Source of the DNA: an uncultured Lachnospiraceae bacterium
GTDB taxonomy: Bacteria; Bacillota; Clostridia; Lachnospirales; Lachnospiraceae
Assembly (NCBI GenBank): GCA_947174505.1
Contig: CAMWJF010000017.1
Coordinates: forward strand, 1-64,000
Reading direction: 5' to 3'
Length of the DNA: 64,000 nt
Part shown: one piece after another, positions 22,719 through 45,101 of the stretch
Position numbering within the stretch: the stretch's first letter is position 1
How the letters are laid out: every line of letters starts with the position of its first letter
The notes under the pieces: model-generated
Told to the model about the DNA's origin: nothing
The model's database searches: none
Seen by the model: only the letters and a program-made list of their open reading frames with translations
Position numbers and translations under genes: made by a program

Positions 22719-22749
22719 AAAAAATTCGCAGAATTGGGCATTCTGCGAA
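22719..22749 (-). terminator. Possible terminator of the Uma2 gene, built from recombination-like site 1
   Basis: On the minus strand the 10-bp stem of the palindrome at 22725-22749 is followed directly by TTTTTT, so it can act as an intrinsic terminator for the Uma2 gene that ends at 22882. The second copy of the same sequence at 24991-25015 lacks a U-tract. Confidence 0.45.
22725..22749 (+). repeat. Palindromic 25-bp site, copy 1 (inverted with respect to copy 2)
   Basis: Arms TTCGCAGAAT and ATTCTGCGAA (10 bp each) flank the asymmetric centre TGGGC. The copy at 24991-25015 has the same arms around GCCCA, the exact reverse complement. Identity extends 4 nt beyond the right arm (AATT). Ten-base inverted arms around a short asymmetric spacer are the design of tyrosine-recombinase core sites, and a tyrosine integrase gene lies between the two copies. 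Confidence 0.75.
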
Positions 22750-22881
22750 AATTGGGCAGGCAGAATCTCTTGTCCTCTAACTGCCTGCTAGTTATGTATC
22801 GTCATAAATTATACTTTAGATAAGACTGTTTGTCAATTTTGCCGCAAAAGACAGTGCTGTCATTTTTTGGCAACAAAAACT

Positions 22882-23466
22882 TCAGTTTTTAATAAATTCT
22901 ATAAAATCGAGATACAGATCCTTATAAATCCCCACTCGAATCCGTTCAGAGAAAGAATGGCAGACAGGAATATCCCACCGATCCGCTTCATATATGGTAA
23001 CCATTTCCTTTTTCGGATCGACAATCCAGTATTCCCGCACGCCTGTTTCCTGATAAAGCGCAGTTTTCCTCACATAATCCATCTTCCTGCTGGAAGGGGA
23101 CACAATTTCGATTACCCAGTCCGGTGCGCCGTGACAGCCCTTTTCATCCAGCTTATCCTCATGGCAGATCACAGAAATATCAGGTTCCACATAATTACGG
23201 TCGTCCTTTTTAATGTAAACGCCAAAGGGTGCGGGAAGAAGTTCACAGTTACCTTTATTTTTTCTGATAAATGTCTCAATTTCAAAAATAAGCTTTACAA
23301 GAATCCTCTGGTGTATCGTCATTGGCGTCGCCATCATAAACATTTCGCCATCAATCAGCTCCGCCCGTTCCCCATCCGGCAGGGCTTCGATATCCGCAGT
23401 CGTATAGCCTTTTCCGCCTTTCCTTTCCATAAATAAGTCCTCTTCTCTGATTCGTGCATAGTTCAT
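22882..23466 (-). CDS. Uma2-family (DUF820) PD-(D/E)XK nuclease
   Basis: A 194-residue protein with GGAGG before the ATG at 23466. Uma2-family features in order: YTTADIEALPDGERAELIDGEMF, MTIHQRILVKLI, NYVEPDISVICHED (catalytic acid in PD), DWVIEIVSPSSRKMD (second catalytic acid E), and KTALYQETGVREYWIVDPKKEMV. It is a predicted restriction-type endonuclease fold common as orphan genes in many bacteria. Its role is unknown. It lies inside the segment bounded by the two inverted 25-bp sites and reads away from the integrase. Confidence 0.88.
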   Translation of the reverse strand: MNYARIREEDLFMERKGGKGYTTADIEALPDGERAELIDGEMFMMATPMTIHQRILVKLIFEIETFIRKNKGNCELLPAPFGVYIKKDDRNYVEPDISVICHEDKLDEKGCHGAPDWVIEIVSPSSRKMDYVRKTALYQETGVREYWIVDPKKEMVTIYEADRWDIPVCHSFSERIRVGIYKDLYLDFIEFIKN

Positions 23467-23776
23467 AGATTGTCCTCCTGTTCTACAGGAGAAAGCTGTA
23501 TAGCTGTATAGAATCTCCTGCTTTTAAGTTGTGTTGGCTGATTTAAAAGCATAGAAATTCTGAAACACAGATTGGAAACCGATATGAAAAACCGGTTTAT
23601 TTGACACTGGCGTAACATAATATTACGTCGAATATTTGTTGTCGAGAAAATAATATGCTTTGTGTTAATTATAGGGAACTGCCCTTTATGTGTCAAGCAC
23701 GAAAAAACGTTTCTGCTAAACTCTATGTAAAATTTTGTCATATTTTGTCTTTCAAACTGTGATTAATGGTATATTT
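23467..23776. other. Divergent spacer between Uma2 nuclease and integrase
   Basis: AT-rich DNA with no supported gene. It contains CGTAA...TTACG around 23610 and must hold the promoters of both divergent genes. Its right end runs into the paired TGGTCA repeats before the integrase. Confidence 0.45.
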
Positions 23777-23777
23777 G

Positions 23778-23797
23778 TGGTCAAAAAAGTGGTCAGA
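23778..23797 (+). repeat. Paired direct repeat TGGTCA-N6-TGGTCAGA, left copy
   Basis: TGGTCA at 23778 and TGGTCAGA at 23790 are 12 nt apart, just before the integrase ribosome site. The same pair with the same spacing occurs at 24930 and 24942 at the end of the gene. Tn916-type integrases have an N-terminal domain that binds tandem direct arm repeats, so these are candidate arm sites. Confidence 0.55.
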
Positions 23798-23811
23798 AAG
23801 GAGAACTACAT

Positions 23812-24954
23812 ATGCCAAGACGAGGTGACAACATAAGGAAACGCACAGACGGAAGGTGGGAGGGACGATATCCGGCAATATCTGAGGATGGAAAAAAGCG
23901 CTACCTGTCCGTTTATGGAAAATCTTACAATGAAGTAAAAGAAAAACTAACTGCCAGAATGTATATGTTAAACAGGGATGATTCCCACCGGGTACAACCC
24001 TCTCAGAAAAGTGGCAGGCTGCCACAACAGATCTGCAATGCCAGTTTTTGCGTGCTTATGGAGGAATGGCTGGAGGAGGTGGCACAAAACAGAAAATATT
24101 CTACTTATATTAAATACAAAAAGCTTTATACATGTCACATCAAAGCCCTCTTCTTCTCCGATAATCTTTCCCAGATGACCAACAGTCACATTCAGGCAGA
24201 AATGGCCAAATTAGAAGTATCTGATTCGACCAGACAAAGCGTTTTGGCTACCGTCAAACAGACTCTGTGTTACATAGAAAAGCAATATGGTTATCCTGTG
24301 CCCACAATTGCAGGCTGTGCCCTGCAAAAAAGAGCAGCTTCGATTGAAATTATGGACCGAGCGGAACAGACAAGGCTGATCCGGTTTCTTCACAGTGACA
24401 TGGACATCTCCAAGGCAGGCATATATCTTTGTCTTTTTACCGGTCTTCGGTTAGGAGAAATATGTTCTTTGAAGTGGGAAGATATAGATCGGGAAAGAGG
24501 ACTGCTACATGTCAACAGAACCGTGCAGAGAATAGAAAGCAGAGAAGGAACAACAAAAACTATTCTTTTAGAGACACCCCCAAAAAGCGTTTTTTCTAAA
24601 CGGGCAATCCCGATATCAGATACGCTGCTGTCACTTCTTACTAACTTTCATCAGGAAGGGCAGGAATATGTTCTGAAAAAAAATAGACCGATGGAACCAC
24701 GTACCTATCAGAACCATTTTAAGAAGTATCTGGAAGGAATTGATGCTCCCAATTATAACTTTCATATATTGCGGCATACCTTTGCCACAAACTGCATTGA
24801 CAGCGGAATGGATGTCAAAAGCCTCAGTGAAATTCTGGGACATTCCAATGTTCAGATTACCATGAACAGATATGTCCATCCAAGCATGGATACCAAGCGA
24901 AAGCATATCAACGCACTTTCCGCCAATTATGGTCAGTTATGTGGTCAGATGTAG
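23812..24954 (+). CDS. Tyrosine recombinase/integrase (Tn916-Int-like)
   Basis: A 380-residue protein preceded by AAAGGAGA. Domains: an AP2-like arm-binding N-terminus (about 1-50, RGDNIRKRTDGRWEGRY), a SAM-like core-binding domain (about 75-170), and a catalytic domain (about 185-375). The active site is complete: Arg in LFTGLRLGEICSLKWEDID, HxxR in FHILRHTFATN, His in LGHSNVQITMNRY and the Tyr nucleophile in that same motif. It lacks an excisionase neighbour and there is no mobile-element cargo beyond the Uma2 gene. It is enclosed by paired TGGTCA repeats and by two inverted 25-bp sites, so it may invert the local segment instead of moving an element. Confidence 0.92.
   Translation: MPRRGDNIRKRTDGRWEGRYPAISEDGKKRYLSVYGKSYNEVKEKLTARMYMLNRDDSHRVQPSQKSGRLPQQICNASFCVLMEEWLEEVAQNRKYSTYIKYKKLYTCHIKALFFSDNLSQMTNSHIQAEMAKLEVSDSTRQSVLATVKQTLCYIEKQYGYPVPTIAGCALQKRAASIEIMDRAEQTRLIRFLHSDMDISKAGIYLCLFTGLRLGEICSLKWEDIDRERGLLHVNRTVQRIESREGTTKTILLETPPKSVFSKRAIPISDTLLSLLTNFHQEGQEYVLKKNRPMEPRTYQNHFKKYLEGIDAPNYNFHILRHTFATNCIDSGMDVKSLSEILGHSNVQITMNRYVHPSMDTKRKHINALSANYGQLCGQM
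24930..24949 (+). repeat. Paired direct repeat TGGTCA-N6-TGGTCAGA, right copy
   Basis: This copy overlaps the last codons of the integrase, with repeats at 24930 and 24942. Spacing and orientation equal those of the left copy at 23778-23797. The 25-bp core-like site 2 begins 41 nt downstream. Confidence 0.55.
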
Positions 24955-24990
24955 TAAAAGGCCTGTGCCTGCAAGGGAAAGGACAGAATT

Positions 24991-25015
24991 TTCGCAGAAT
25001 GCCCAATTCTGCGAA
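24991..25015 (-). repeat. Palindromic 25-bp site, copy 2
   Basis: TTCGCAGAAT-GCCCA-ATTCTGCGAA is the exact reverse complement of the site at 22725-22749. It ends 36 nt before the start codon of the TnpB-like gene, so it lies in that gene's promoter or leader region. Recombination between copies 1 and 2 would invert about 2.3 kb carrying the Uma2 and integrase genes. Confidence 0.75.
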
Positions 25016-25051: not shown

Positions 25052-26356
25052 ATGCCGTCGAACACCATATGCAAGACTGTCCGCCAATATAATAGTGTAC
25101 CCCTATCCGAAGCGGATATGAGAAAGCTTCAGGAGATTGCGGGGGATTACAGGACGGTCAAGAATTATGTGTATCAACGTTATGGCGGAATCAAAAGCCT
25201 GTCCATAATTTATCCCGGATATACCGTGCAGAATGAAATGACGGCGAGCGGCCTGCGGGCAAGTCTCGGTCTGCCGTCGGTGTATTTTTATCTGGCTGTC
25301 TTCGATGCGCTGGGAGATATCAAGAACCAGTGGACACAGACGAAGGGCAGGATAGAAAAATGCATTCGGGAAAATGAGAATCTGACGCCGGAGGACAGAC
25401 ATTATCTGCGGTTTGTCATGAAGCAGAGCGATTGCTTCGAGGCGATTCTTCAGGAGAAAGAAATCCAGCTTTCCGAAGCTTGGGAAAAGACGTTCCGGGA
25501 AGTGCGGACAGGCGTCGAGGAGAATCGGCTGAACCAATATTTGCGCAGACAGGTGCGCAGACACTTAAAGAAAATGCATACGGATACTGTGGACGGGTTT
25601 TCCGTATCGGGGAAAGCGTACCGCTATGACAATCATGGTATCTATCTTGCCATAAAAGAAAAGAGAAAGCGGATTTTCATACCGCTTACAGACAATAACC
25701 GATATACGAAACAGCTTTATATCCGTATTTTTCCCGAGGAGAGAAATGTCGTCATTCATGCGCCTGTGGAGAGGAAAGTCAGACAGCATGAGGATTACCG
25801 CGGAGAGATTGGGTTGGCGATGGGAATCCGCACCATGTTTGTGACAGATAAAGGCAGTATTTACGGGGAAAAGTATAGCGATCATCAGTATGCGCTTTCG
25901 GAATATGTCAGAGAGGGCAACATTCGATACCGCAGGAATAAGGATAAGAATCCCGGCAGAAAAAAGTATACGGCTGGCAGGGAGAGGCGGGAAGAGGCTC
26001 TGCATACCTATATTAATGCGGAGATCAACCGTATGCTGCGGACAGAAAAACCGGGTGTGATCTATCTTCCCAAGCTGCCGCAAAGCTCTAAAGCGGGTGT
26101 AAATAAAAAAATCAACAGTTCTGTCAGTATGTGGCAGAAAGGCTATGTGAGAAACCGGCTGACCCAGAAATGCAGGGAACAGGCCATTGAATTGATAGAA
26201 GTGTTTGGGAAGGATATCAGTAACGAATGCAGTCAGTGCGGTGCGACCGGCCAAAAGGAAAATGATGTTTTTACCTGTAAAGCTTGCGGCGCAAAACTCT
26301 CCGAGAGAGAAAACGCTGCGAAGAATGCCCTAAAGCGTGGGCAAATGCGTTCATGA
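25052..26356 (+). CDS. TnpB-like RNA-guided-nuclease homologue with apparently dead RuvC site
   Basis: A 434-residue protein. The C-terminal half has the order of IS605 TnpB: RuvC-I-like strand (about 250-272, GEIGLAMGIRTMFVTDKG), basic bridging helices, RuvC-II-like strand (about 333-345, GVIYLPKLPQSSK), zinc ribbon (about 392-411, CSQCG...CKACG), and RuvC-III-like end (about 413-425, LSERENAAKNAL). The usual catalytic residues are replaced: the Asp of G-[ILV]-D-x-G is Ala, the Glu of E-D-L is Pro, and the Asp of D-x-N-A-A is Arg. The zinc ribbon is intact. The N-terminal half (QYNSVPLSEADMRKL, TVKNYVYQRYGG) resembles TnpB nucleic-acid-binding regions. No TnpA is adjacent. A structured RNA-like region follows at once. 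It could be an RNA-guided DNA-binding regulator of the nuclease-dead TnpB (TldR) kind. A degenerating transposon gene is the alternative. Confidence 0.75.
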   Translation: MPSNTICKTVRQYNSVPLSEADMRKLQEIAGDYRTVKNYVYQRYGGIKSLSIIYPGYTVQNEMTASGLRASLGLPSVYFYLAVFDALGDIKNQWTQTKGRIEKCIRENENLTPEDRHYLRFVMKQSDCFEAILQEKEIQLSEAWEKTFREVRTGVEENRLNQYLRRQVRRHLKKMHTDTVDGFSVSGKAYRYDNHGIYLAIKEKRKRIFIPLTDNNRYTKQLYIRIFPEERNVVIHAPVERKVRQHEDYRGEIGLAMGIRTMFVTDKGSIYGEKYSDHQYALSEYVREGNIRYRRNKDKNPGRKKYTAGRERREEALHTYINAEINRMLRTEKPGVIYLPKLPQSSKAGVNKKINSSVSMWQKGYVRNRLTQKCREQAIELIEVFGKDISNECSQCGATGQKENDVFTCKACGAKLSERENAAKNALKRGQMRS

Positions 26357-26375
26357 TGAAAGATTTCACAGATGA

Positions 26376-26756
26376 ATGTTCCCATTGGGAAACATTTTAC
26401 CAAAACCGATTCTTCGGGAGTAGGACTGCGGAAAATTTCTTTTGATAAAAAATAGGCGTAACGGATCTGCGATAACAAAACCGTTACGCCACGCGGCATT
26501 AGAAGCCGGCTTCGGCCGGGTATTGGGTATGCCATGACCCGTGGGAACTTCCCAAAGGAAGATGTACCGGGAGCGAAGCGGACGGGAATACCGCCAGCAG
26601 CGTCGTAAGACGTCCAATATGCCTTGTTAATTGAGCCGTGCAGTCATGAGTGCGGACAGAAAAGCCTGCTTGCAGAAGTTTTTCTGCTAGGACTCGTGAC
26701 TATAGGGCGAAAGCCCGCAGCGAGATGGAGCGGAAGCGAAATCGAGCAGGCACGGC
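26376..26756 (+). ncRNA. Candidate structured RNA (guide/omega-RNA-like) downstream of the TnpB-like gene
   Basis: No gene is seen here, but stems are dense and ordered. AATGTTCCC pairs with GGGAaACATT near 26376-26395. A 10-bp stem GGCGTAACGG/CCGTTACGCC joins 26455-26464 to 26481-26490. A domain closed by GGCAT/ATGCC (26495-26499, 26619-26623) holds CCGGC-TTCG-GCCGG (26506-26519), CTTCC-CAAA-GGAAG (26548-26561), long-range CCCGT/ACGGG (26538-26542, 26582-26586) and CGTC-GTAA-GACG (26601-26612). A domain closed by GCCGTGC/GCACGGC (26635-26641, 26750-26756) holds a 10-bp stem (26642-26651/26692-26701), GCAGAA-GTTT-TTCTGC (26672-26687) and GGGC-GAAA-GCCC (26705-26716). UUCG and GNRA tetraloops point to a folded RNA. 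Its place matches omega RNAs, which lie 3' of tnpB, although it is longer than most. True ends and guide are not known. Confidence 0.65.
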
Positions 26757-27878: not shown

Positions 27879-29243
27879 GTGGACAGATATAAAAAGAAAG
27901 ATATGCTGCAGACAGTAGACACACTGCTGAAAGCTAATGATGCCATCGTAAGAACACGCACTTCCAATCCGCAGGGGGCAGCAGAGGCTCTCGTACAATG
28001 TCAGGAATCAGCAATTGCGCTGGGCACCTATATTGATACATTGGATGAAAGGTTTGCGCCGCTTGTGCACACGCTTGAGGATTACTGTGAAAACATTTAT
28101 CAGATGAGCGAAAACCTGCCGGATGAAAATCTGTGCAGGAAGTATGCGAAGAAAATCCAGAAACAATTGACTGGTCTTCGGAATGGCATTAAATATGATT
28201 TGCCTGATGATAAAAAAGAAATCGTGTTTCTCCCTTATAAAGCATCTATGTGGGATTCTCTGGAAAGCGTATGGAAGGCGGCGGATGGCGATCCTGAATG
28301 TGACGCTTATGTGATTCCCATTCCTTATTTTGACAAAAACCCGGATGGGAGTTTTCGTGAAGAACATTATGAGGGGGATCTGTACCCTAAAAATGTTCCG
28401 ATTACCCGTTACGACGAGTATGATCTGGAAGCACGTCATCCGGATGTGATTTATATTCATAATCCTTATGATGAATGTAACCATGTGACCAGCGTGCATC
28501 CCTATTTCTATTCTAAAAACCTGAGAAACTATACAGACAAGTTAGTGTATATTCCTTATTTCATCTTAGGGGAGATAGAGCCGGATAATCAGAAGGCGGT
28601 TGACGGAATGAAACACTTCTGCTTCACGCCGGGGACGATTTATGCCCATCAGGTAGTCGTGCAGTCGGAAAACATGCGGCAGATTTATATCAATGAATAT
28701 TTGAAGGCGGCAAAGGAGATGGGACTGCCCGGGGAACACGTGGACAGAAAATTTCTGGAGAAGAAGTTTCTGGGGACGGGTTCTCCAAAGGTAGACAAAG
28801 TATTAAATACAAAGAAAGAGGATCTGGAGATTCCGGCGGAGTGGCTGAAGGTGATTGAGAAGCCGGACGGGAGCTGGAAGAAGATTATTTTTTATAATAC
28901 GAGCGTGAGTGCACTTTTGAAGCATAGCGAGAAGATGCTGCGGAAGATGGAATCGGTGTTTGGGATATTCAAGGAGAATCAGGATGAGGTGGCGTTGCTT
29001 TGGAGGCCGCATCCGTTGATTCAGGCAACGATTGAGAGTATGAGGCCGGAGCTTTGGGCGGCGTACAAGGAGATAAGGGATAGATATATCAAGGAAGGCT
29101 GGGGGATTTATGATGATACCGCGGATATGGATCGGGCGGTCACGATGTCTAGTGCGTACTATGGAGACGGGAGTAGCAGTGTAGTGCAACTGTATAAAAA
29201 AACAGGACAACCAATAATGATACAGAACGTTGAGTGTCTATAA
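27879..29243 (+). CDS. CDP-glycerol glycerophosphotransferase-like / GT-B-fold protein, first gene of the glycan cluster
   Basis: A 454-residue protein with a GTG start at 27879 after AAGGGTGGTGA. Residues 1-110 are helical (repeated QESAIALGTYIDTLDERF-type heptads). Residues 110-454 look like a GT-B fold: KKEIVFLPYKASMWDSLESV, DVIYIHNPYD, VYIPYFILGE, VVVQSENMRQIY, IIFYNTSVSALLKHSEKML, ALLWRPHPLI and MSSAYYGDGSSSVVQLYKKT. The HP-containing and GDGSS motifs near the end match the CDP-glycerol transferase (TagB/TagF-like) family. It may add glycerol phosphate to a surface polymer. Codon and base use are less AT-rich than in the next genes, so it may be the older flank of the island. Confidence 0.65.
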   Translation: MDRYKKKDMLQTVDTLLKANDAIVRTRTSNPQGAAEALVQCQESAIALGTYIDTLDERFAPLVHTLEDYCENIYQMSENLPDENLCRKYAKKIQKQLTGLRNGIKYDLPDDKKEIVFLPYKASMWDSLESVWKAADGDPECDAYVIPIPYFDKNPDGSFREEHYEGDLYPKNVPITRYDEYDLEARHPDVIYIHNPYDECNHVTSVHPYFYSKNLRNYTDKLVYIPYFILGEIEPDNQKAVDGMKHFCFTPGTIYAHQVVVQSENMRQIYINEYLKAAKEMGLPGEHVDRKFLEKKFLGTGSPKVDKVLNTKKEDLEIPAEWLKVIEKPDGSWKKIIFYNTSVSALLKHSEKMLRKMESVFGIFKENQDEVALLWRPHPLIQATIESMRPELWAAYKEIRDRYIKEGWGIYDDTADMDRAVTMSSAYYGDGSSSVVQLYKKTGQPIMIQNVECL

Positions 29244-29297
29244 GGCAAATCATTTAGTTATATTAATAAATAATTTATAGAAAGAACAGGCTGATTT

Positions 29298-30446
29298 ATG
29301 AAAAAAGGAATTTTATATTGGATTACGGGATTATCCGGATCAGGGAAAACGACAATTGGAAACAGATTGTATTATGAGCTTAGGCAGGAAAAGGAAAATG
29401 TAGTACTTTTAGACGGAGATGTTTTGAAAAACATTGTCGGAAGAGATTTGGGTTATACCGAAATTGATAGAAGAAAAAGAGCGGTTCAGTATGCGCGGAT
29501 ATGCAAAGTACTTACTGATCAGGGAATTATTGTTATTTGTTGTACGATCGCGATGTATGACGAAGTGAGGGAATGGAATAGAAAAAATAATAAATCATAT
29601 GTTGAAATATTTTTGGATGTGCCGATGGATGTGCTTATTAAGCGGGATCAGAAGGGGATATACAGCCAATATGAGAACGGAAAAATAAAAAATGTTGCTG
29701 GAATAGATATTCAGGTAGAATTTCCTAAAAGCTCGGATCTTATTTTAAAAAATGATGGGAGCAGAAGCATTAGGGAATGTGTTGCGGAAATTTTAAAAAT
29801 TCCGGTGGAAATTTCGGAAGACTATAAGCGTGATACGGACTATTGGAATGAATATTATAGAAAAACGGATATTGGAGAACCATCTCTTTTTGCGCAGGAA
29901 ATTGGAGATATGTTAATTCCAGCTAAAAATATTCTGGAATTGGGATGTGGGAATGGCAGAGACAGTATTTATTTCTTGAAGCTTGGACTAAATGTCACCG
30001 CGATTGATTCGTCGGATGGTGTAATTACACAACTTAAGAAGAAATACGAGGAAAATAATATTTATTTTATCTGTGATGATTTTGTATCGTCATCGGCAAT
30101 ATTTTCGGGGCAGTATGATTATGTATACAGCCGCTTTACATTGCACGCAATTAATGAGGAACAGGAAATAGAAGTATTACACAATGTATATAAAGTGTTA
30201 AAGAAGAATGGATTGTTCTTTATTGAGGTGAGAAGCATAAACGATGAACTCTATGGAAAGGGAGAAAAAGTAGGGGAAAATTCATACATATTTAACGGAC
30301 ATTTCAGGAGATTTATAAAGATGAAAGACCTTGTGAACAAAATGAAGACAATAGGATTTGAAATTGTAAGCGCTTTGGAGAAAAGAGGATTTGCGCCGTA
30401 TCAGGGGAGTAATCCTCCGATTATCAGAATAATTGCTAAAAGATAA
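29298..30446 (+). CDS. Fusion: APS-kinase-like kinase + SAM methyltransferase
   Basis: A 382-residue two-domain protein. Residues 1-170 match adenylylsulfate kinase (CysC): Walker A ITGLSGSGKTTIGNRL, LLDGDVLKN, GYTEIDRRKRAVQYARICK, CTIAMYDEVREWNRK and a lid region. Residues 180-382 are a class I methyltransferase with motif I NILELGCGNGRDSIYFL, DSSDGV and YDYVYSRFTLHAI. No sulfate-activation partners (CysDN) or PAPS reductase are near. Kinases of this family in polysaccharide clusters can use other substrates; in Campylobacter a CysC-like kinase acts on cytidine diphosphoramidate. The fusion suggests phosphorylation and methylation of one glycan intermediate, which is inference. Confidence 0.85.
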   Translation: MKKGILYWITGLSGSGKTTIGNRLYYELRQEKENVVLLDGDVLKNIVGRDLGYTEIDRRKRAVQYARICKVLTDQGIIVICCTIAMYDEVREWNRKNNKSYVEIFLDVPMDVLIKRDQKGIYSQYENGKIKNVAGIDIQVEFPKSSDLILKNDGSRSIRECVAEILKIPVEISEDYKRDTDYWNEYYRKTDIGEPSLFAQEIGDMLIPAKNILELGCGNGRDSIYFLKLGLNVTAIDSSDGVITQLKKKYEENNIYFICDDFVSSSAIFSGQYDYVYSRFTLHAINEEQEIEVLHNVYKVLKKNGLFFIEVRSINDELYGKGEKVGENSYIFNGHFRRFIKMKDLVNKMKTIGFEIVSALEKRGFAPYQGSNPPIIRIIAKR

Positions 30447-30504
30447 AAGAGCAAGCTACGGCCAGAGTACTTGGAAAGCTAGGGAAGCAGATAAGGAGCA
30501 CACT

Positions 30505-31617
30505 ATGTGCAAAAGTGAGAGAATTAATGTAACGAGATCCTCTATGCCGCCATATGAGGAATATATAGAAGCTATCAGGCCATTATGGGATACACATTGG
30601 ATCACTAACATGGGCAGATATCATATGGAATTGGAAAATCAGCTTAAAAGATATCTAGGCGTGCCGGAAATATCTCTCATGGTAAATGGACATATGTCGT
30701 TGGAGATGGCCATCCAGATGATGGAATTTAATAGGGAAGGAGGGGAAGTAATTACAACCCCGTATTCCTTCATTTCAACAACCCATGCAATTGTACGCAA
30801 TGGATTGAAACCTGTATTTTGTGATATCAAATACGGCGACGCAACGATTGATGAAGACAGGATAGAAGAGCTGATTACAGAAAAAACGGTCGCAATTCTT
30901 CCTGTGCATGTATATGGAAATGTTTGCAACGTGGAGAAAATACAGGGAATTGCGGACAAATATAATTTGAAAGTAATTTATGATGCGGCTCATGCATTTG
31001 GCGTCAGATATAAAAATGAGGGTATTGGAAACTGGGGTGACGCGTCTGTATTCAGCTTTCATGCAACCAAAGTTTTCAACACAATAGAGGGCGGAGCGGT
31101 AACCTTTAAAGAGCAGAAATATTATGAAAAACTGTACAACCTTAAAAATTTTGGCATACATGATGAAGAGTTGGTAGTGGATATAGGTGCTAACGCTAAA
31201 ATGAATGAGTTTTGTGCAATTATGGGTTTGTGCAATTTGCGTCATATTGATACTGCAATACAAAAAAGGAAAAAATATTATGACCTGTATACTCAGGAAT
31301 TAAGTAAAGTCAAGGGAATAAGGCTGCTTGATAGAAATAATGAGGCGGATAATAATTACTCGTATTTTCCGATCGTATTGGAAGAAGATTACATTTGCAG
31401 TAGGAACCAGCTATATGAACGGCTGAAAGAACACAATATATTTTGTAGAAAATACTTTTTCCCTCTGATATCTGAATCAAAATGTTATCGGGATTTATAT
31501 GGAAATAGCGGACTGAATAATGCAAAAAAAATATCTAATAATGTATTGATTTTACCGCTGTATGAAGATATGGAGACGGAACTAATAAATAAAGTACTTA
31601 AGATTATAAGTGAATAA
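30505..31617 (+). CDS. DegT/DnrJ/EryC1/StrS-family sugar aminotransferase
   Basis: A 370-residue PLP enzyme starting at the ATG at 30505, which has AAGGAG 6 nt upstream; the frame is open from 30433 without a ribosome site. It has SLMVNGHMSLEMAIQMM at the cofactor phosphate site, TTPYSFISTTHAIVRNG, VIYDAAHAFGV (Asp to PLP nitrogen) and FSFHATKVFNTIEGGAV (Schiff-base lysine). Members convert a keto-sugar nucleotide to an amino sugar. With the GT56 (Fuc4NAc-type) transferase and the NeuD-like acetyltransferase nearby, it most likely makes a 4-amino-4,6-dideoxyhexose. The dehydratase that would supply its substrate is not in the window. Confidence 0.88.
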   Translation: MCKSERINVTRSSMPPYEEYIEAIRPLWDTHWITNMGRYHMELENQLKRYLGVPEISLMVNGHMSLEMAIQMMEFNREGGEVITTPYSFISTTHAIVRNGLKPVFCDIKYGDATIDEDRIEELITEKTVAILPVHVYGNVCNVEKIQGIADKYNLKVIYDAAHAFGVRYKNEGIGNWGDASVFSFHATKVFNTIEGGAVTFKEQKYYEKLYNLKNFGIHDEELVVDIGANAKMNEFCAIMGLCNLRHIDTAIQKRKKYYDLYTQELSKVKGIRLLDRNNEADNNYSYFPIVLEEDYICSRNQLYERLKEHNIFCRKYFFPLISESKCYRDLYGNSGLNNAKKISNNVLILPLYEDMETELINKVLKIISE

Positions 31618-31648
31618 AAATAGATTTATTAGTTTGGAGGAGATGCAA

Positions 31649-32902
31649 GTGAATAAGATAGAAGAGGAATTGCTGAAAAAGGCAAGAGGATATAAGAACT
31701 CAATAAAGATGTACAATAATTTATATGCTGAAAACCATCTAAAAGAGTTTTCAGAACTACCCTTACTTCGTAAAAGGGATTTGATTGATGATCAGAAGAA
31801 TTATCCTCCCTTCGGTTCGGGTGTCGTTGGTTATAAAAATGAGATTAAACGTGTACATAGAACATCAGGAACATCTAGTATGCCATTGCTGTTGGCATTG
31901 ACAGAAAATGATATAAAAAATGTAATATCAACCGGAAAACAGGCATTTTCGTTGGCTGGTTTAACAGAAAATGATATTGTAATAAATTGCATGAATTATT
32001 GCATGTGGATGGGGGGATTCATGGATCACCAAAGCCTTGAGGCTACTGGGGCTGCAGTTATACCATATGGCGTGGGAAATACGGATAATTTGATTCAGAT
32101 TATTAGACAAATACCACAGGTATGTATTCATGCGACACCGTCATATTTAGGTAATTTAGAAAAAACGGCGAGAGAGAAATATGGTATAAGCCCAGCACAG
32201 TTACAGATAAAAAAGGGTTTTTTTGGTGGAGAAGGAGGGTTAGATGACCTGAATTTTAGAAATAGATTGGAAAAAAAGTGGGGTATGGATATATATAATG
32301 CGAATTATGGGATGTCAGAAGTTATGAGTATTATAGCGTCTGAGGGAAAAGACAAGAATGGTCTTTGCTTTGTTGCAGGGGAGACATTATATCCGGAATT
32401 ACTTGATAGAGGAGAGCAGAATGCATCGAATAGATTCTTTAAAAAAGGTGCTATTGGAGAATTGGTTTTGTCAAATCGTTGTAAAGAATCGCAGCCGCTA
32501 CTCAGATATGCAACAGGTGATTTAATAGAGATAATTGATGCGGAAGAGTGTGAAGCAATTCAAAACTTCAAATTTAAAGTAATTGGACGAAGCGATGATA
32601 TGCTTGTCATTAGGGGAATAAATTTTTATCCGGTAGTATTGAGGGAATTGATTTCAACATATAAGGAGTTTACAGGAAATTATCAGGTTCAGATCATGGA
32701 AAAAGGAATTATAGATTATATAAGACTGATAGTAGAATTAAATAATCAATATAATTCGGAACATTGTGAATTATTAAGAAATAGTTTAAAGAATGCTATT
32801 AGAAGGAAATATTTTGTTTCATGCGATATTAAGCTGACAAGTCATATAGAATGTCAGGATAATAAATTACAATTAGTAAGGAAGGTTGATAGTTTTGAAT
32901 AA
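31649..32902 (+). CDS. CapK/PaaK-like adenylate-forming ligase
   Basis: A 417-residue protein. GGAGG lies 8 nt before a GTG at 31649, which is preferred; an ATG at 31610 overlapping the previous gene is possible. The ATP-binding loop is VHRTSGTSSMPLLL, followed by INCMNYCMWMGGF, GFFGGEGGL, IYNANYGMSEVMSI, LLRYATGDLIEI and GRSDDMLVIRGINFYPVVL, all matching phenylacetate-CoA ligase (PaaK/CapK). It activates a carboxylic acid as the adenylate, and perhaps as the CoA ester. No acyl-carrier protein is seen. The next gene is a KamA-like aminomutase, so the acid could be a beta-amino acid. Confidence 0.85.
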   Translation: MNKIEEELLKKARGYKNSIKMYNNLYAENHLKEFSELPLLRKRDLIDDQKNYPPFGSGVVGYKNEIKRVHRTSGTSSMPLLLALTENDIKNVISTGKQAFSLAGLTENDIVINCMNYCMWMGGFMDHQSLEATGAAVIPYGVGNTDNLIQIIRQIPQVCIHATPSYLGNLEKTAREKYGISPAQLQIKKGFFGGEGGLDDLNFRNRLEKKWGMDIYNANYGMSEVMSIIASEGKDKNGLCFVAGETLYPELLDRGEQNASNRFFKKGAIGELVLSNRCKESQPLLRYATGDLIEIIDAEECEAIQNFKFKVIGRSDDMLVIRGINFYPVVLRELISTYKEFTGNYQVQIMEKGIIDYIRLIVELNNQYNSEHCELLRNSLKNAIRRKYFVSCDIKLTSHIECQDNKLQLVRKVDSFE

Positions 32903-33968
32903 TAAACATAATTTTAATGAAGTAATATCAAAATATTTACAGAATTTGATGTGTAATACAGAAAAGCGCTATGGAAAAGAAAGTAGTGAATATAAAGCAC
33001 TTTATTATCAATATGTAAAAACAGATGCCGAGCTTATGGAAATGAGGGAACATAATGATAAGCATTATGAGGCTATTGTCGACTGTGAACAAAAAGGATT
33101 GCGATATATTGAAAGACTGTATAAAAGGCAGGCAACGATTGATTTAACCACAGCATGTAGCGCACATTGTAGATATTGCTTGCGTCAAAATTATGAAAGT
33201 ATATCTCTGAATCAGGAAGATGAGAACGCGATCATGGAATATCTTGCCAAAGATGAGTATTTAAAGGAAATATTAATTACTGGTGGTGATCCGTTATTAG
33301 TTGTGGATAAATTGATCCATGTGATGGAGAGAATTATAAATGAGGCGCCTAATATTAGAATTATCAGAATAGGGACAAGGGTACCAGTTCAAAATCCGGA
33401 ACAATTAGATAAAAAGCTACTTGAGTTTTTCAATAACAATAATAAAAAGGTCTTTTTTGAAATTGCGCTTCAAATTAATCATAAAATAGAACTGCAAAGT
33501 GAGACACAGAGATGCATAAGGGAGCTACAGAGGGTTGGTGTCTGTATATATGCTCAAAATGTGCTTTTAAAAAACGTGAATTCTTCTATGGAGACTTTGA
33601 TAGAGCTGTATGATGCCCTCAGGTATGAACACATAGAGACGCACTATTTGTTTCATCCGGTTCCAATCAGCAGAACAGCACAGTTTCGTATGCCATTAGA
33701 TGAGTTCTTGAATTTTGCCAGACTTTTGACTTCTTCGGGGGAGATACCCGGAAGAAGTAAACCTATGTTTTCTTTAATGACAGATATTGGAAAATGTACG
33801 CTATATGAAGGGACTTTGAGAAAAACTAATGTGAAGGAATATGTTGATGTGAAAACAGCCTATAGATTAGAAGAGCGTTTAAAGTGGAACCCTCAATATA
33901 AATTACCGGCAAGTGCAAGGATAGCGGATGACGGTACATTAATTGTAAGGTATATGGATGGAATTTAG
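32895..33968 (+). CDS. KamA-family radical SAM enzyme (lysine/glutamate 2,3-aminomutase-like)
   Basis: A 357-residue protein. AAGGAAGG lies 9 nt before TTG at 32895; TTG at 32886 is the alternative. The 4Fe-4S radical SAM motif is TACSAHCRYCLRQN, then ILITGGDPLLV and IRIIRIGTRVPVQNP, which are closely similar to lysine 2,3-aminomutases, and HYLFHPVPISRTAQFRMPLDE. The glycine-rich PLP-lysine loop of KamA is not evident; SKPMFSLMTDIGKC lies in its place. It is shorter than KamA (about 415) and near EpmB size. Its start overlaps the ligase gene by 8 nt. Mutase activity on an amino acid used for glycan decoration is plausible, but the reduced PLP loop leaves this open. Confidence 0.85.
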   Translation: MNNKHNFNEVISKYLQNLMCNTEKRYGKESSEYKALYYQYVKTDAELMEMREHNDKHYEAIVDCEQKGLRYIERLYKRQATIDLTTACSAHCRYCLRQNYESISLNQEDENAIMEYLAKDEYLKEILITGGDPLLVVDKLIHVMERIINEAPNIRIIRIGTRVPVQNPEQLDKKLLEFFNNNNKKVFFEIALQINHKIELQSETQRCIRELQRVGVCIYAQNVLLKNVNSSMETLIELYDALRYEHIETHYLFHPVPISRTAQFRMPLDEFLNFARLLTSSGEIPGRSKPMFSLMTDIGKCTLYEGTLRKTNVKEYVDVKTAYRLEERLKWNPQYKLPASARIADDGTLIVRYMDGI

Positions 33969-34647
33969 TCTTATGAGAAAAGAAAAAGTAATATTAATTG
34001 GTTGTGGCGAACATGCGCGAATGGTTATTGATAACATTGAAGAGGCAGGTAATATTGAAATATTTGGAATGATAACCAGCATTAGTGAAGATGTAGGGAA
34101 GCAAATGTATGGCTATACGATTCTGGGAACGAATGATGATATTGATAATATTTTTAAAGAGAATCCGGATTTGACAGGATATTTTCTGACGATTGGAACT
34201 TTAAAAGATGGAAATATGAAAGCCCGAGAAGAGATGTACCGAAGATTGGATAAATTATATAGGGCCATAAATATTATACATCCGACAGCTATTATATCAA
34301 GACATGCATCAATAGGATACGGAAATATTTTTGAAGCGTATACTAGAGTCGCAAATTCGGCAACAGTTGGGAATCATTGTATTATCAATAGTTTTTCTGC
34401 AATTAACCATGACCAAACAATAGAAAACAATGTTTTAATTGCGGGCAATGTGAGTATGGCTGGATGTAGGATAGGGGAAAATACGATTGTAGCAGACGGA
34501 GCATCGATTGGATTTAAAAAATCTGTTGGTAAAAATTGCGTTATAGGCGACGGAGCTGTTGTTACGAAAGATATACCAGATAACTCAATTGCTTATGGCA
34601 ATCCGGCAAGGGTAATCAGACGAAATCCGCATTATTCAAAAGTATAA
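33958..34647 (+). CDS. NeuD/PglD-like sugar O/N-acyltransferase
   Basis: A 229-residue protein; the ATG at 33958 overlaps the previous stop and the ATG at 33973 (MRKEKVILIGCGEHA) is an alternative. Residues 5-100 are a PglD-type Rossmann N-domain (VILIGCGEHARMVIDNI). Residues 105-225 are a left-handed beta-helix with hexapeptide repeats, including HPTAIISRHASIGYGNIFEA, the catalytic His in INHDQTIENNV and GNPARVIRR at the end. It transfers an acetyl or other acyl group from CoA to an amino sugar. Next to the aminotransferase it probably acylates that 4-amino group. Confidence 0.88.
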   Translation: MEFSLMRKEKVILIGCGEHARMVIDNIEEAGNIEIFGMITSISEDVGKQMYGYTILGTNDDIDNIFKENPDLTGYFLTIGTLKDGNMKAREEMYRRLDKLYRAINIIHPTAIISRHASIGYGNIFEAYTRVANSATVGNHCIINSFSAINHDQTIENNVLIAGNVSMAGCRIGENTIVADGASIGFKKSVGKNCVIGDGAVVTKDIPDNSIAYGNPARVIRRNPHYSKV

Positions 34648-34685
34648 CCATAATTTATCAGGTACTTAATGGTCAAAACGGGTAT

Positions 34686-35741
34686 ATGAAGAAAATTTTA
34701 CATTTATTTAGAACTTCACAATTCACCAAGGACTTTATCGAGCTTATTAATCAGTATTATAATCCGGACAGCCATATTTTTTGGGTATATGGCGAAAGTT
34801 TTTTTGATTATTTAGATAAGTCTATGATTCAGTTTAATAATGTTGTGTACATACCAAGAATTGATATTTTATTAAATAAAGACAGCGTGGTTAAGCAACT
34901 GGAAGAATTTGAATTGATTATTTACCATGGACTATTTGATGAGAATATTATTAATTTTTTTGGATTACACAAACATTTAGTGAATAAATTGGGATTATAT
35001 TTTTGGGGTGGAGATAAAAAACCGGCGGCTTTTTGGGATGAAGACAGCAAGGAGCGTTATAGATACGTTATTCAAAATGCGGCAAAAATTATCACAATCA
35101 TTGAAGAGGATTATAAAAGTATATGCGATGATTATGGTCCTTGCGGAGAACATTATACCGTGGTATATGGAGGGTGTTATGACTATGGTGAATTAGAATA
35201 TGAGGACATAATTTATGGGCAACCAATTAATGTTCAGATTGGAAATTCAGCGACAGTATCTAATAATCACATTAAAGTGCTTAAGGAATTGGAAAAATAT
35301 AAGAATGAGAATATACGGATATGGCTACCACTTTCTTATGGAGACAGAGAGTATGCCAAAAAAGTTATCGATTTTGGACAAAAAGTATTTGGCACCAAAT
35401 TTATTGCGATGGAGAGATATATGCCGGAGAAGCAATACAATGAATTGCTAAAAAGCATGAATGTAGGAATTTTTGATATTGACAGGCAGCAGGCTTTGGG
35501 AAATATCACATCGCTGTTAGAAAGTGGCTGTAAAATTTTTTTGAAAAAAGACACAATGTTAGCAAGATATTTTGAAAATGAATGTGGATGCAAGATATTT
35601 TATATGGAGGATATTTCTCGAATGGAATTTAGGCAATTTATAAAATATTCGAAAAAAGAAGCATGCGGAAATAAGGAAAAATTGGATCGGTTTTTTGACA
35701 TAGACAGAATTACGGAAGTCTGGAATAAAATATTTGATTAA
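34686..35741 (+). CDS. GT56-family glycosyltransferase (Fuc4NAc transferase-like)
   Basis: A 351-residue protein resembling the 4-alpha-L-fucosyltransferase/TDP-Fuc4NAc:lipid II transferase family (WecF/RffT, Glyco_transf_56). Visible family features: ILHLFRTSQFTKDFIELIN, IIYHGLFDENIINFFGLH, LGLYFWGGDKKP, INVQIGNSATVSNNHIKVL, IRIWLPLSYGDREYAKKV and MERYMPEKQYNELLKSMNVG. The presence of this transferase suggests that the amino sugar made by the genes upstream is a 4-acylamido-6-deoxyhexose. It is a cytoplasmic, membrane-associated protein. Confidence 0.82.
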   Translation: MKKILHLFRTSQFTKDFIELINQYYNPDSHIFWVYGESFFDYLDKSMIQFNNVVYIPRIDILLNKDSVVKQLEEFELIIYHGLFDENIINFFGLHKHLVNKLGLYFWGGDKKPAAFWDEDSKERYRYVIQNAAKIITIIEEDYKSICDDYGPCGEHYTVVYGGCYDYGELEYEDIIYGQPINVQIGNSATVSNNHIKVLKELEKYKNENIRIWLPLSYGDREYAKKVIDFGQKVFGTKFIAMERYMPEKQYNELLKSMNVGIFDIDRQQALGNITSLLESGCKIFLKKDTMLARYFENECGCKIFYMEDISRMEFRQFIKYSKKEACGNKEKLDRFFDIDRITEVWNKIFD

Positions 35742-35751
35742 ACAGAGGGGG

Positions 35752-35859
35752 AAAAAGATTGGAATATATGGATGTGGAAGTATCGGCCGACTGGCATATG
35801 AATTATTAAAGGAACAGTATAATACCGGGAAGTCAGGAATTTTAGATTATGTTTTTTAA
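35752..35859 (+). pseudogene. Remnant of a Rossmann-like domain
   Basis: A 35-codon open stretch without a start codon reads KKIGIYGCGSIGRLAYELL...GILDYVF and stops. It matches the first strand, glycine-rich loop and helix of the Rossmann-like domain carried by ten proteins of this cluster. It lies between a finished transferase gene and a free-standing copy of the same domain. It looks like a leftover of domain exchange or gene deletion. Confidence 0.6.
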
Positions 35860-35920
35860 AAAATGATTGCTCAGGTATCTAAAGCCAAAGAGTATTTCGA
35901 AAGATGAAAAAGGATTTGAA

Positions 35921-36322
35921 ATGGAAGAAAGTATTCAGGAATATAAAAAAGGATCAGATAAGCATTTAGAAATGTTTTTGGTTATGTATTTTTGGGTGCG
36001 AAATCTGAACAATAAGAAAAAGATCGGTGGTTTTTTGAAGGATCAGGGATATCATCATATTGCGATTTATGGCGCAAGCTACATGGGTATCTGTCTTTGT
36101 GAAGAATTAGTAAAGGAAGATATTGAGGTAATCTGTTTTATTGATAAAAGAGATATAGATCAGATTATGAAAATTCCAGTCAAAAAAATAGAGGATGATT
36201 TGGAATCGATAGATGCAGTTATTGTGACATCCGTCTATTATTTCTATGAAATTGAAAAGCAATTAAAAGATAAATTAAATTGTGCAATTCTTTCACTTAG
36301 TGATATTGTTTACAAGCTATAG
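35921..36322 (+). CDS. Free-standing Rossmann-like accessory domain protein
   Basis: A 133-residue protein. AAAGGA 7 nt before the ATG at 35921 decides the start; the frame is open from a TTG at 35867. Residues 10-45 are helical (SDKHLEMFLVMYFWVRNL). Residues 46-133 form the shared domain: HIAIYGASYMGICLCEEL, VICFIDKRD, AVIVTSVYYFYEIEKQL and ILSLSDIVYKL. The gene at 42411-42887 is a clear paralogue (SDKHLALFLMMNRW, SIAIYGMSYAGERL). Function unknown; it may be a nucleotide- or sugar-nucleotide-binding partner of the transferases. Confidence 0.7.
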   Translation: MEESIQEYKKGSDKHLEMFLVMYFWVRNLNNKKKIGGFLKDQGYHHIAIYGASYMGICLCEELVKEDIEVICFIDKRDIDQIMKIPVKKIEDDLESIDAVIVTSVYYFYEIEKQLKDKLNCAILSLSDIVYKL

Positions 36323-36349
36323 AAGTAAAGCAGACGGAGGGAAGAGCGG

Positions 36350-38548
36350 TTGGATTTTAATAAAATAATTGATGATATTATCTTTAAATATAATTTAGAT
36401 AGTTTTTATCCCTGTTATAGAAAAATGAGAAAGGCTGAAAAATACATACACATCTGGATGGAAGAATGCCTGAAAAGAGTGGAGGAGAGTGGAAAGATAC
36501 TTTGTATAGCATCTTGTAATGAAGAGGCGGATCGCTTTGATTTTTATACGTTACAGGATAAACATTTCGAGTATTTTATAGGGAACAATGGTCTGCAGAA
36601 TATTGAATGGGAGAAATATCAGGAAGTTTATATTGTTTCCTATCAGGAAAAGGAACAACTTTCCAAGCAGCTTACGCTTAATGGAGTACCTTTTAGCTGG
36701 ATTTATGATTTATTTACAACATATGGGGAACATTTTGACAAAGAATTCTATGATTTCTTAACGGAATGCTCATTAGATAAAGAATATGATTATTATACCA
36801 AAGATAATAATTATTTCTTAGAACTTTTTTTCTTAAAAAGAAAATATAAATCGTCCGCCATAACAAAGGAGGAATTTTTAAAAAGAATATTTTTCCTATC
36901 AATAGTATTTAAAGATTTTTTACTGGCGGAAAAGTATTATCAGGAAATTTTGGGCTGTATGGACAAAGATTTGAAAACGGATTACATTCAGGCATATGCG
37001 GAAATTAAGAATGTATTGCAGGAAATGAGAAAATCTTTGTTGCAAAGAAATAAAGGAAAAAATGACATAGTGATGGTTTGGCTGGATCAAATGAAATATG
37101 GCTTGGAGAAAGATATGCCCTATTTAGCAGAGGAAATGAAAGAAGGAGTTTACTTTGATCATGCCTATACTGTGATTCCTTATACAATACCAACTTTCAG
37201 AGTGCTTTTTACTGATGAAAAGGAGATCACAATTGGTCTACATAGTCATAAGAAAATTTACAAACAAGAAAGTTTGCTCATTCAGGAAATGGAACGGAGA
37301 GGATATGTATTTAAAGTAATCAGTGGCTATATTGGCAATATTGAGAGGGAATGGCAGTGTGAGGAATATTTTGATAAATGGGCACCGATGTCATTGCTGT
37401 GTTGGAATTTTTTATGTTGTTTGGTGAATTCTGAGGAATCGGTTTTTGCGGTTGTACATGAGATGAGCCATACACACACGCCTTATTTTACCAATCAAAT
37501 GAATGAAGAAATGGCAGGAAACAGTAAAGAATCTGTTCAAAAAAGACATGCCCATGCCATGAATGAGACAGACCAATGTTTAGGATATTATATGAATTTT
37601 CTTTCAGAAGATACAACTAAGATTTATATGAGCGATCATGGATTGGGAGAACCTTGGGAGCACGTACATACATTATTTGCGGTTACGAGCAAGAAAATTG
37701 GTAAGGGACGGATATCGGATGTTTTTTCATATTTGAATTTTGATAGATTAGCACGGCAATTAATGGAAGATCGATTTTCATCTGCTGAGTTTGTTGGCGA
37801 AAACGCACCAATTTGCTCAATGCCCTTATATAATTATGAACTTATTAAAGCACGTCTAAGAAGTAAAAGATTAGAGATAAGAGAAATTGGTTATCAGGGA
37901 ATGGTAAATAAAGACTATATCTACCTTAAGTATAATAATCAAAGGGAAGTGTTACTAGACCAGAATCATTTACCTCATAAAATTTATGCTATTCCACATC
38001 CGTCAGATATATGTAATGCGGATAAAGTGCAGTATTTTCGAAGCAATATAAATAAGTGTAATGTCGATTTTCAAAGTGAAAAATTTAAGTATTCCAAATA
38101 TCTTTTGAAAGTATTTGATAATCTGGAACGCAGTCAGAGAAATCAATTGGACTATATTAATGCATGGATAGTTGCTTCGGGGAAGGAAAGAATAGCAATA
38201 AGAATGGGAGGAGAGCATTCTTACACGTTATACGAGTGGTTGACAGAGGATAATCGGGAAAAAATAGTGGGATTTATAGACGAAAATTCAGAATGTATTT
38301 GTAAGGCGTTTAGAAAGAAAATTATTCCAATGGAAAAAATCTCAGAAGAAGAAATTGACTGCGTTATTCTATCATCATTTGAGCATCTAAACTTTATCCG
38401 AGAAGAAGCGACTGCTTACCCGAAGGGGATAGGTGTATTTGATATGTATAATTATTTACAGGAAAAGGGATTCCCGTTTAGAGATATACAATGTGACTTA
38501 GTGGGTATGTCAGACAGTGAATATGATGTTGGCTTTCCAAAGATATAG
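36350..38548 (+). CDS. Sulfatase/alkaline-phosphatase-superfamily protein with C-terminal Rossmann-like domain
   Basis: A 732-residue protein with a TTG start at 36350 preceded by GGAGGGAAG. Residues 1-235 are helical and unrecognised. Residues 240-480 resemble the sulfatase/phosphoglycerol-transferase fold: DIVMVWLDQMKYGLEKDMPYL, TVIPYTIPTFRVLF (nucleophile-region Thr/Ser), VVHEMSHTHTPYF (His-rich metal region) and IYMSDHGLGEPWEH. The last 110 residues carry the shared Rossmann-like domain (RIAIRMGGEHSYTLYEWL, GFIDENS, VILSSFEHL). No signal peptide or membrane helix is seen, so it would act in the cytoplasm, unlike most sulfatases. A phosphoryl or sulfuryl transfer or hydrolysis on a glycan precursor is inferred. 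Confidence 0.6.
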   Translation: MDFNKIIDDIIFKYNLDSFYPCYRKMRKAEKYIHIWMEECLKRVEESGKILCIASCNEEADRFDFYTLQDKHFEYFIGNNGLQNIEWEKYQEVYIVSYQEKEQLSKQLTLNGVPFSWIYDLFTTYGEHFDKEFYDFLTECSLDKEYDYYTKDNNYFLELFFLKRKYKSSAITKEEFLKRIFFLSIVFKDFLLAEKYYQEILGCMDKDLKTDYIQAYAEIKNVLQEMRKSLLQRNKGKNDIVMVWLDQMKYGLEKDMPYLAEEMKEGVYFDHAYTVIPYTIPTFRVLFTDEKEITIGLHSHKKIYKQESLLIQEMERRGYVFKVISGYIGNIEREWQCEEYFDKWAPMSLLCWNFLCCLVNSEESVFAVVHEMSHTHTPYFTNQMNEEMAGNSKESVQKRHAHAMNETDQCLGYYMNFLSEDTTKIYMSDHGLGEPWEHVHTLFAVTSKKIGKGRISDVFSYLNFDRLARQLMEDRFSSAEFVGENAPICSMPLYNYELIKARLRSKRLEIREIGYQGMVNKDYIYLKYNNQREVLLDQNHLPHKIYAIPHPSDICNADKVQYFRSNINKCNVDFQSEKFKYSKYLLKVFDNLERSQRNQLDYINAWIVASGKERIAIRMGGEHSYTLYEWLTEDNREKIVGFIDENSECICKAFRKKIIPMEKISEEEIDCVILSSFEHLNFIREEATAYPKGIGVFDMYNYLQEKGFPFRDIQCDLVGMSDSEYDVGFPKI

Positions 38549-38584
38549 TAAATATGTAGTTTTAAGGGAAAGGAGGGTTATCTA

Positions 38585-39781: not shown

Positions 39782-39800
39782 AGTGGATGGAAAGATACCT

Positions 39801-39920
39801 ATGAATATCATTATTTTCGCCTATGGGCAGGAAGGAATAGAGCTATACCGAGAATTGAAAAACAGTGATTCTTATTCTGGAGAGCCGGTATATAGTATTG
39901 CGGCAGATTACTATAAATAG
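39801..39920 (+). pseudogene. Short Rossmann-like remnant
   Basis: A 39-codon frame, MNIIIFAYGQEGIELYRELKN..., ends before the next transferase gene. It matches only the first strand, loop and helix of the shared domain, without the rest. No good ribosome site precedes it. It is likely a decayed fragment, similar in kind to 35752-35859. Confidence 0.5.
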
Positions 39921-39933
39921 CAGGAGAAACGTT

Positions 39934-41079: not shown

Positions 41080-41134
41080 GGCTATATGAGGAGAACCATA
41101 TTACAAGTATTCATCTGACAAGGCAGGGAAGCTT

Positions 41135-42887: not shown

Positions 42888-43055
42888 TTTGGAGGATGAG
42901 GCAATATTGTTTTTGACTGCAAAGGAATGGAAATACAATGAAAATGTATGGAGTTTGTCTTGAACAACGCGTTCCAAAGCCAGCACATTGGAATCCGGGA
43001 AGTGCATGTAATAGAAGAGGCGTAACAGAAGAACGAACTATGAGGGCGGTGTGAG

Positions 43056-44159: not shown

Positions 44160-44176
44160 ACGGGAAGGTAAAAGGT

Positions 44177-45088: not shown

Positions 45089-45101
45089 CGGGAGAGGGTT
45101 T

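Follow-up and report, generated by a model that had tools for sequence, protein, structure and literature searches.

Two kinds of described systems stand close to the locus reported here. The phase-variable capsule operons of Bacteroides carry UpxY/UpxZ, and they combine an invertible promoter, a regulator gene in first place, glycan genes behind it and several loci per genome. The second kind is formed by the TldR proteins. In the report on the fliC- and csrA-associated clades (PMC13418256), these are TnpB-derived, have a dead RuvC site, are followed by an RNA and are linked to surface genes that are not transposon genes. Guides of 6 nt are enough to reduce motility, the csrA-linked TldRs target sites inside fliC open reading frames (ORFs), and hin together with promoter inversions of ~120 bp, shown in Flavonifractor plautii, is found upstream of csrA-tldR loci. 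We analysed 64,000 nt (the window) of contig CAMWJF010000017.1 (assembly GCA_947174505.1) from an uncultured Lachnospiraceae bacterium, in which a gene encodes a TnpB-like protein whose three RuvC catalytic acids are all replaced. We consider it rather probable that this protein is a phase-variable, nuclease-dead, RNA-guided regulator of the TldR type which heads surface-glycan type operons. The locus shares with the Bacteroides capsule operons the arrangement given above, but where those have the NusG-like UpxY, the regulator here would be a dead TnpB plus an RNA.

The reading frame at 25052-26356 is intact, as the initial annotation had stated, and its product has a TnpB/Cas12f-like fold along its length, with residues 4-434 aligning to TnpB 8h1j. 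dCas12f complexes (9n9c, 9n9m) were listed, by title, among the near structures. The loss of all three acids, which was the central claim of that annotation, was confirmed: A256, P340 and R419 take the places of the catalytic D/E/D. Unlike the TnpB nucleases of ISDra2 (8h1j/8exa) and ISFba1 (8iaz), the window protein keeps no catalytic acid, and it scores 58.1 bits with the NCBIfam model guided_TnpB, under the 100-bit cut-off. In 84,980 species genomes that were scanned, 219 relatives were found, and the best 80 of them were used. When these were aligned with the window protein and three divergent relatives from the genus (n=84), no member kept any of the three acids. The first position holds A in 56 sequences, S in 25 and H in 3; the second P in 51, V in 26, A in 3, T in 2 and I and M in 1 each; the third K in 51, R in 30 and A in 3. 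The assignment of positions is supported by an intact TnpB (L014) and by two relatives which bear D/E/D (L201 and L202), the BLASTP alignment requiring a one-residue shift at the third motif. A broken copy in genome G036 and fragments in G003 were excluded from the alignments. All of the best 80 database loci carry open dead genes, and dN/dS lies between 0.045 and 0.161 in 11 pairs, near 0.08. With the acids lost in 84/84 members and dN/dS in this range, the comparative evidence marks these proteins as a conserved dead lineage rather than as a transposon gene in decay. Both the conservation of the loss and the purifying selection had been proposed as checks on the initial annotation, and the outcome that would have spoken against it, homologues mostly keeping D/E/D, was not found.

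The dead gene is followed by a conserved structured RNA of about 150 nt, the core of which begins ~50 to 400 nt past the stop codon across loci. RNAalifold placed 27 pairs in 41 sequences (alignment A3, 41 of the 82 extracted RNAs), 20 of them with compensatory changes. When a five-pair pseudoknot between ATTGG and CCAAT was added, changes on both sides were seen in 20 of 32 pairs. Including the pseudoknot, 97.0% of cells were paired vs 82.1% in shuffled and 29-41% in slid versions, a figure biased in favour of the structure since this was derived from the same alignment; the covariation score was 0.454 vs 0.172. Model R1, built from the 41 sequences, matches 89/91 loci and, at E 0.01, no other place in the 1.59 Mb that these loci span. 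The two missed loci are L086 and L109, whose contig ends 22 nt past the stop codon. In six whole genomes with 20 dead genes it gave 23 matches, all at those 20 loci and double in three, with 150 of 753 to 1262 first-look candidates scored per genome, so that an orphan RNA could escape. Rfam, searched up to E 10, returned two matches near E 10, far under the gathering scores. Loci within one genome or among close species are not independent of each other, in this and all other counts. The dead protein and the RNA occur together and both are under selection. Given its position after the ORF, its linkage to the dead gene and the fold of the protein, the RNA is likely the guide RNA of the dead TnpB.

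The 3' end of the RNA reads AAT[AG]T[GAT][CT][CT]TT[AG]TT (about AAT[AG]TGCCTTATT) in 83/91 loci, 82 times beside the RNA, in a pattern search which permitted three substitutions. If the pseudoknot is correct, the candidate guide starts at 26619, after CCAAT. Its conservation drops off after ~10 nt, and its variation consists mostly of transitions, which would be tolerable by G-T wobble. Between the stop codon and the RNA core, a hairpin CAGAT.AAT..ATTTTACC is common by eye to many of 15 relatives. Directly after the guide, a second structured element (26632-26765, 134 nt) is closed by a GCCGTGC..GCACGGC stem; parts of it are also present at six further positions of the genome as well as in L044, L030 and L101, and it looks like a dispersed repeat.

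Upstream of the gene, inverted recombination sites enclose a segment with a sigma-70 consensus promoter and a tyrosine recombinase gene. In 100 shuffles, no such site pair was expected in the window (0). Inverted recombination sites lie near the gene in 63 of the 83 loci whose upstream sequence is long enough, vs 1/65 and 0/55 control placements. The spacer of the sites is mostly equal (inverted) at both ends of a locus and differs between loci. Two site types were seen: TTCG(C/T)AGAA, often enclosing a tyrosine recombinase, and a short type of ~130-170 bp. By ORF cluster, a tyrosine recombinase lies upstream in 21/91 loci and a serine recombinase in 9/91 (Resolvase 7.5e-30 in L123), many loci having neither close by. 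Relatives of the window recombinase gene occur upstream of the dead gene in both orientations, and the best NCBIfam models for the serine recombinase are XisF and Mpi, below their cut-offs.

Segment orientations were compared between relatives, not at one locus within one strain. The clearest inversion is between L060 and L065 of one metagenome-assembled genome, where the segment is 91.8% identical in minus and the flanks are 87.6% and 95.8% identical in plus. In the pair L061/L072 the segment is 88% identical in minus with the near flank 80% in plus, and in L079/L094 it is 91% identical in minus with the surroundings in plus. As in promoter invertons, inverted sites lie around a promoter and the segment is found in both orientations between relatives. 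The window operon is drawn OFF because the segment promoter points away from it; ON and OFF were taken from a single assembly per locus. In 32 long segments, listed by hand and scored over the outer 300 nt per end without shuffles, a promoter matching at least 11/12 positions is present at one end only in 26 (8 toward the gene, 18 away) and absent in 6. All five segments with a reversed recombinase and such a promoter have it facing the gene, and in all twelve with a forward recombinase (one a remnant) the promoter points away. A promoter like that of the window faces the gene in L048, L056, L072, L027 and L032, and L050, L051, L053 and L068 have an additional weaker 10-of-12 match facing it. 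Among 33 short segments, 18 carry TTGAC[GT]-17-TAGAAT, which faces the gene in L118, L094 and L096 and points away in 15; the 15 segments without it have weaker or different promoter matches only.

Two further observations concern the sites. On the minus strand, the distal site at 22725-22749 resembles a terminator, with a hairpin and a T run, for transcripts exiting the segment in the OFF orientation; the proximal site has no T run, and terminator-like sites in the region are at chance level (5 vs 4.9). Upstream of L096, from -425 to -47, a 135-nt perfect inverted repeat lies beside two copies of the switch segment.

Behind the RNA follows an operon with a DegT aminotransferase, glycosyltransferase-like genes and others. 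Its first gene (gene D) belongs to a cluster present in 60/91 loci, always downstream and on the same strand. Across loci, the operons contain nucleotidyltransferase, epimerase-like, aminotransferase, NeuB-like and glycosyltransferase-like genes, all on the strand of the dead gene; few of these genes were Pfam-scanned and several names were given from the look of the translations. This gene content points to a role in surface glycans. One operon gene, at 29298-30446, joins an APS-kinase domain to a methyltransferase domain. The stretch that separates the RNA from gene D holds an AAA-ATPase-like gene in pieces (26888-27766), which looks like a broken insertion; by eye, L027, L023 and L034 seem to have similar genes starting at the same point. 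The features of the window are collected in Table 1.

Table 1. Positions of the dead TnpB-like gene, its RNA, the invertible segment and the operon in the window
Feature	Position	Strand	Remarks
Invertible segment, 2291 bp	22725..25015	.	inverted recombination sites at both ends, match over 29 bp
Distal recombination site TTCGCAGAATGCCCAATTCTGCGAA	22725..22749	-	25 bp, 0 mismatches
Sigma-70 consensus promoter TTGACA-17-TATAAT in segment	22808..22836	-	points away from operon (OFF)
Uma2-type putative nuclease gene, probably passenger	22882..23466	-	PF05685 8.8e-35; inside invertible segment
Second 12-of-12 promoter match	23696-23668	-	ahead of Uma2 gene
Tyrosine recombinase, putative invertase of switch	23812..24954	+	Phage_integrase 7.7e-29
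Proximal recombination site	24991..25015	+	ends 36 nt ahead of ATG
Nuclease-dead TnpB-like protein	25052..26356	+	A256, P340, R419 where D, E, D expected
5' hairpin region, stop codon to RNA core	26357..26485	+	perhaps same RNA; outside model R1
Conserved structured RNA core, candidate guide RNA scaffold and 3' guide	26486..26633	+	R1 E 3.4e-25
CCAAT, predicted pseudoknot partner of ATTGG	26614..26618	+	paired in 98.5% of cells
Candidate guide ATGCCTTGTTAA, family consensus [AG]TGCCTTATT	26619..26630	+	pattern in 83/91 loci
Surface-glycan type operon (DegT aminotransferase, glycosyltransferase-like genes, others)	27879..52578	+	
Gene D, conserved operon gene	27879..29243	+	without Pfam family

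The genome of the window holds three copies of the dead gene. The family was found in 11/37 genomes of the genus, in one of which (G036) solely as the broken copy, and a twelfth match (G051) is an ordinary TnpB. In a family sample of 298 genomes, 29 had a match. Thirteen of these were strong (E < 1e-100), one with an internal stop (G230) and one split in two pieces, while the other 16 were weak (E > 1e-11) and resembled ordinary TnpB or fragments. The record titles of the best 80 of 219 relatives name Lachnospiraceae or Dorea, Blautia, Acetatifactor, Schaedlerella and Sporofaciens, some Clostridium, Clostridiaceae or Hungatella, and some no taxon. Sporofaciens musculi (G061) has seven loci, Dorea sp. 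5-2 (G063) four, Schaedlerella arabinosiphila (G062) three, Acetatifactor muris (G065) two and Clostridium porci (G064) one; small protein fragments in the first and third of these were not scored as loci. L024, L025, L036 and L026 were left out as duplicates of L045, L113, L047 and L048, respectively. The phage and plasmid collections gave just distant TnpB (3 and 15 records). L033, L023, L034 and L200 form a divergent dead clade with 34-38% identity. Their RNA is related to R1 (E 2e-7 to 2e-4) and has a different 3' end, in which L200, L023 and L034 carry CTTATGAT-like words.

The D/E/D-bearing relatives L201 and L202 lie on viral contigs and are 31-32% identical and colinear over the full length. 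A conserved region follows their genes in the same place as the RNA, with a similar CCA.GAC(stem)G.GCGAA motif, and its CCAAGACTT..AAGTGCGAA resembles CCAGGACCC..GGGAGCGAAG of the dead family (both by eye); model R1 found no match in this region at E 1. Past it, both meet by eye an identical TTTTTAGAACCAGC (FLEPA codons), which lies in a possible viral structural gene, as if L201 and L202 were inserted at one conserved site.

Taken against what is described, the dead family is most likely a TldR-like lineage. It has inactivated RuvC acids, an adjacent structured RNA with a presumed guide role in 89/91 loci, and in place of transposon partners a linkage to host genes, with gene D in 60/91 loci and, in Pfam scans, no TnpA among the seven neighbours in the window, which agrees with the initial annotation. 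That annotation had also proposed a TldR-like RNA-guided repressor. The dead lineage under selection and the linked structured RNA speak for this proposal; a target of the guide was not found. Three elements had escaped it, namely the RNA, the invertible promoter together with its recombinase, and the operon of surface-glycan type, and these alter the likely purpose of the protein. Since the csrA-linked TldR loci also have a recombinase, hin, and upstream promoter inversions, the link between a dead TnpB and an inverton is not wholly new. Compared with the TldRs of PMC13418256, the dead family differs in being tied to surface-glycan type operons instead of flagellin or csrA, in its recombinases, which are tyrosine recombinases or a serine type nearest XisF/Mpi, and in a guide which is nearly constant across operons. 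The open PMC literature gave no paper linking TnpB, invertible promoters and glycan operons, and nothing on TnpB with a tyrosine recombinase and polysaccharide or on invertible promoters with capsular polysaccharide and Lachnospiraceae; most subscription papers lie outside this search. Within the open PMC literature searched, the glycan-operon link, the other recombinases and the RNA appear new.

In the mechanism we propose, a recombinase-type switch would flip the promoter ahead of the dead gene, and in the ON orientation the dead TnpB, the downstream RNA and the glycan genes could be co-transcribed. The protein would bind the RNA as a guide ribonucleoprotein, and this complex would bind DNA matching the constant 3' end of the RNA without cutting it and so block transcription. 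Operons of the same kind, the own one or its paralogues, would be the likely targets, because the sole family-wide guide match we found is the RNA 3' end at the operon heads.

Several observations weigh against this mechanism. RNA and DNA binding by the dead TnpB are predicted from sequence. The pseudoknot, which defines the guide start, has no covariation support because four of its five pairs never vary, and its CC is missing in some loci. At the threshold, 20/83 loci have no inverted site pair. The guide is almost constant between operons, unlike a programmed guide, and this suggests a common target or a structural role. The search for a DNA target found none. The window guide (13 nt, at most one mismatch) has seven matches in its own genome, two in RNA genes and five in frames of at least 150 codons. 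ATGCCTTATT has 77 matches in five genomes, 11 to 20 in each, which is no clear excess since a control word is comparably frequent (8 to 14 each). Of the 40 guide 10-mer contexts examined, from three genomes, 38 lie within frames of at least 98 codons; they share no promoter site, and the shared ones are near-identical genes. In the 1.5 kb upstream of the gene, the guide is not in excess, occurring with at most one mismatch in 10/74 loci vs 9/74 for the reversed guide.

The VYIPYF codons of gene D (TATATTCCTTATTT) were tried as a guide target and rejected, the resemblance being barely above controls. With at most one mismatch they fit the guide in 7/75 loci in sense vs 2/75 reversed and 0/75 with a shuffled guide, and gene D is scarce where dead loci abound (two matches vs seven dead loci in G061). 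The fit is slightly poorer in own pairs than in permuted pairs (2.60 vs 2.47 mismatches, P 0.016; with wobble 1.375 vs 1.227, P 0.002; 48 loci, ancestry uncorrected). Because shared ancestry is not controlled in this comparison, we claim neither targeting nor self-avoidance. The near copies L080, L084 and L113 were omitted from some guide tests.

A doubtful extension of the mechanism is a one-at-a-time glycan system, in which an operon flipped ON would silence its sisters through its own dead TnpB and guide. A single DNA word would then serve as guide and as target, its sequence staying similar among paralogues, with the target at the heads of the sister operons. Among directed within-genome guide pairs (n=94, 10 nt, G-T wobbles allowed), 36 fit, 44 have one mismatch and 14 have two. 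At equal protein distance, guides differ by 1.43 mismatches within vs 1.65 between genomes, which is not significant (P 0.086), and C. porci retains the guide with one locus, which cross-silencing alone does not explain and which counts against sister-operon silencing as the sole role.

The main rival, possible if unlikely, is a role in cis: the protein-RNA complex would act on the growing transcript and antiterminate or attenuate transcription of the long glycan operon, with the constant 3' end as an RNA element and not a DNA guide. LoaP and UpxY factors occupy the corresponding place elsewhere. Such a role would fit the place of the RNA, which in each of the 89 loci having it sits on the same strand between the dead gene and the operon genes, as well as the long operon which follows in the window and a constant 3' end for which no DNA target was found. 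The protein, however, has a TnpB fold over its full length and matches no NusG family, to which antiterminators of the LoaP/UpxY type belong, in the Pfam scan, and the RNA sits where TnpB guide RNAs do. Known antitermination RNAs were compared via Rfam only, where the two matches fell far below gathering scores.

It is improbable that the complex directs the adjacent recombinase, as an RNA-guided accessory factor of inversion which, for example, fixes switch orientation or selects sites. A recombination site does end just before the window ATG, and tyrosine or serine recombinases lie upstream in the numbers given above. The same protein and RNA, however, occur with either of two unrelated recombinases and with both site types, no recombinase was found close by in many loci, and guide and site show no likeness by eye. 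Rearranged RuvC sites occur in some TnpB, and near-invariant acids stand outside the catalytic positions (D32, E62, D85, D89, D214, E324, E332 and E376 in 55 aligned rows), from which the protein might still act as a nuclease; this is very improbable, as no D or E is fully invariant in these rows of the sequence alignment and the third position holds K or R in 81/84. A functionless, decaying transposon gene, to which the lost acids, the broken G036 copy and the internal stop in G230 could point, is refuted, as far as sequence allows, by the open, acid-free genes at all of the best 80 of 219 loci, the low dN/dS and the covarying RNA, and we give it next to no weight.

If the TldR-type regulator is what we take it to be, RNA-guided transcription control by domesticated TnpB would reach beyond flagellin to the phase-variable surface glycans of a major gut family, with up to seven loci in one of the six genomes counted. 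The family also offers many natural dead TnpBs that share a distinctive RNA; together with the acid-keeping relatives on viral contigs, they are useful for tracing the change from nuclease to regulator. A testable link would connect the inversion of DNA and a dead RNA-guided protein with the choice of the cell-surface coat, and this choice likely shapes phage sensitivity and contact with the host.
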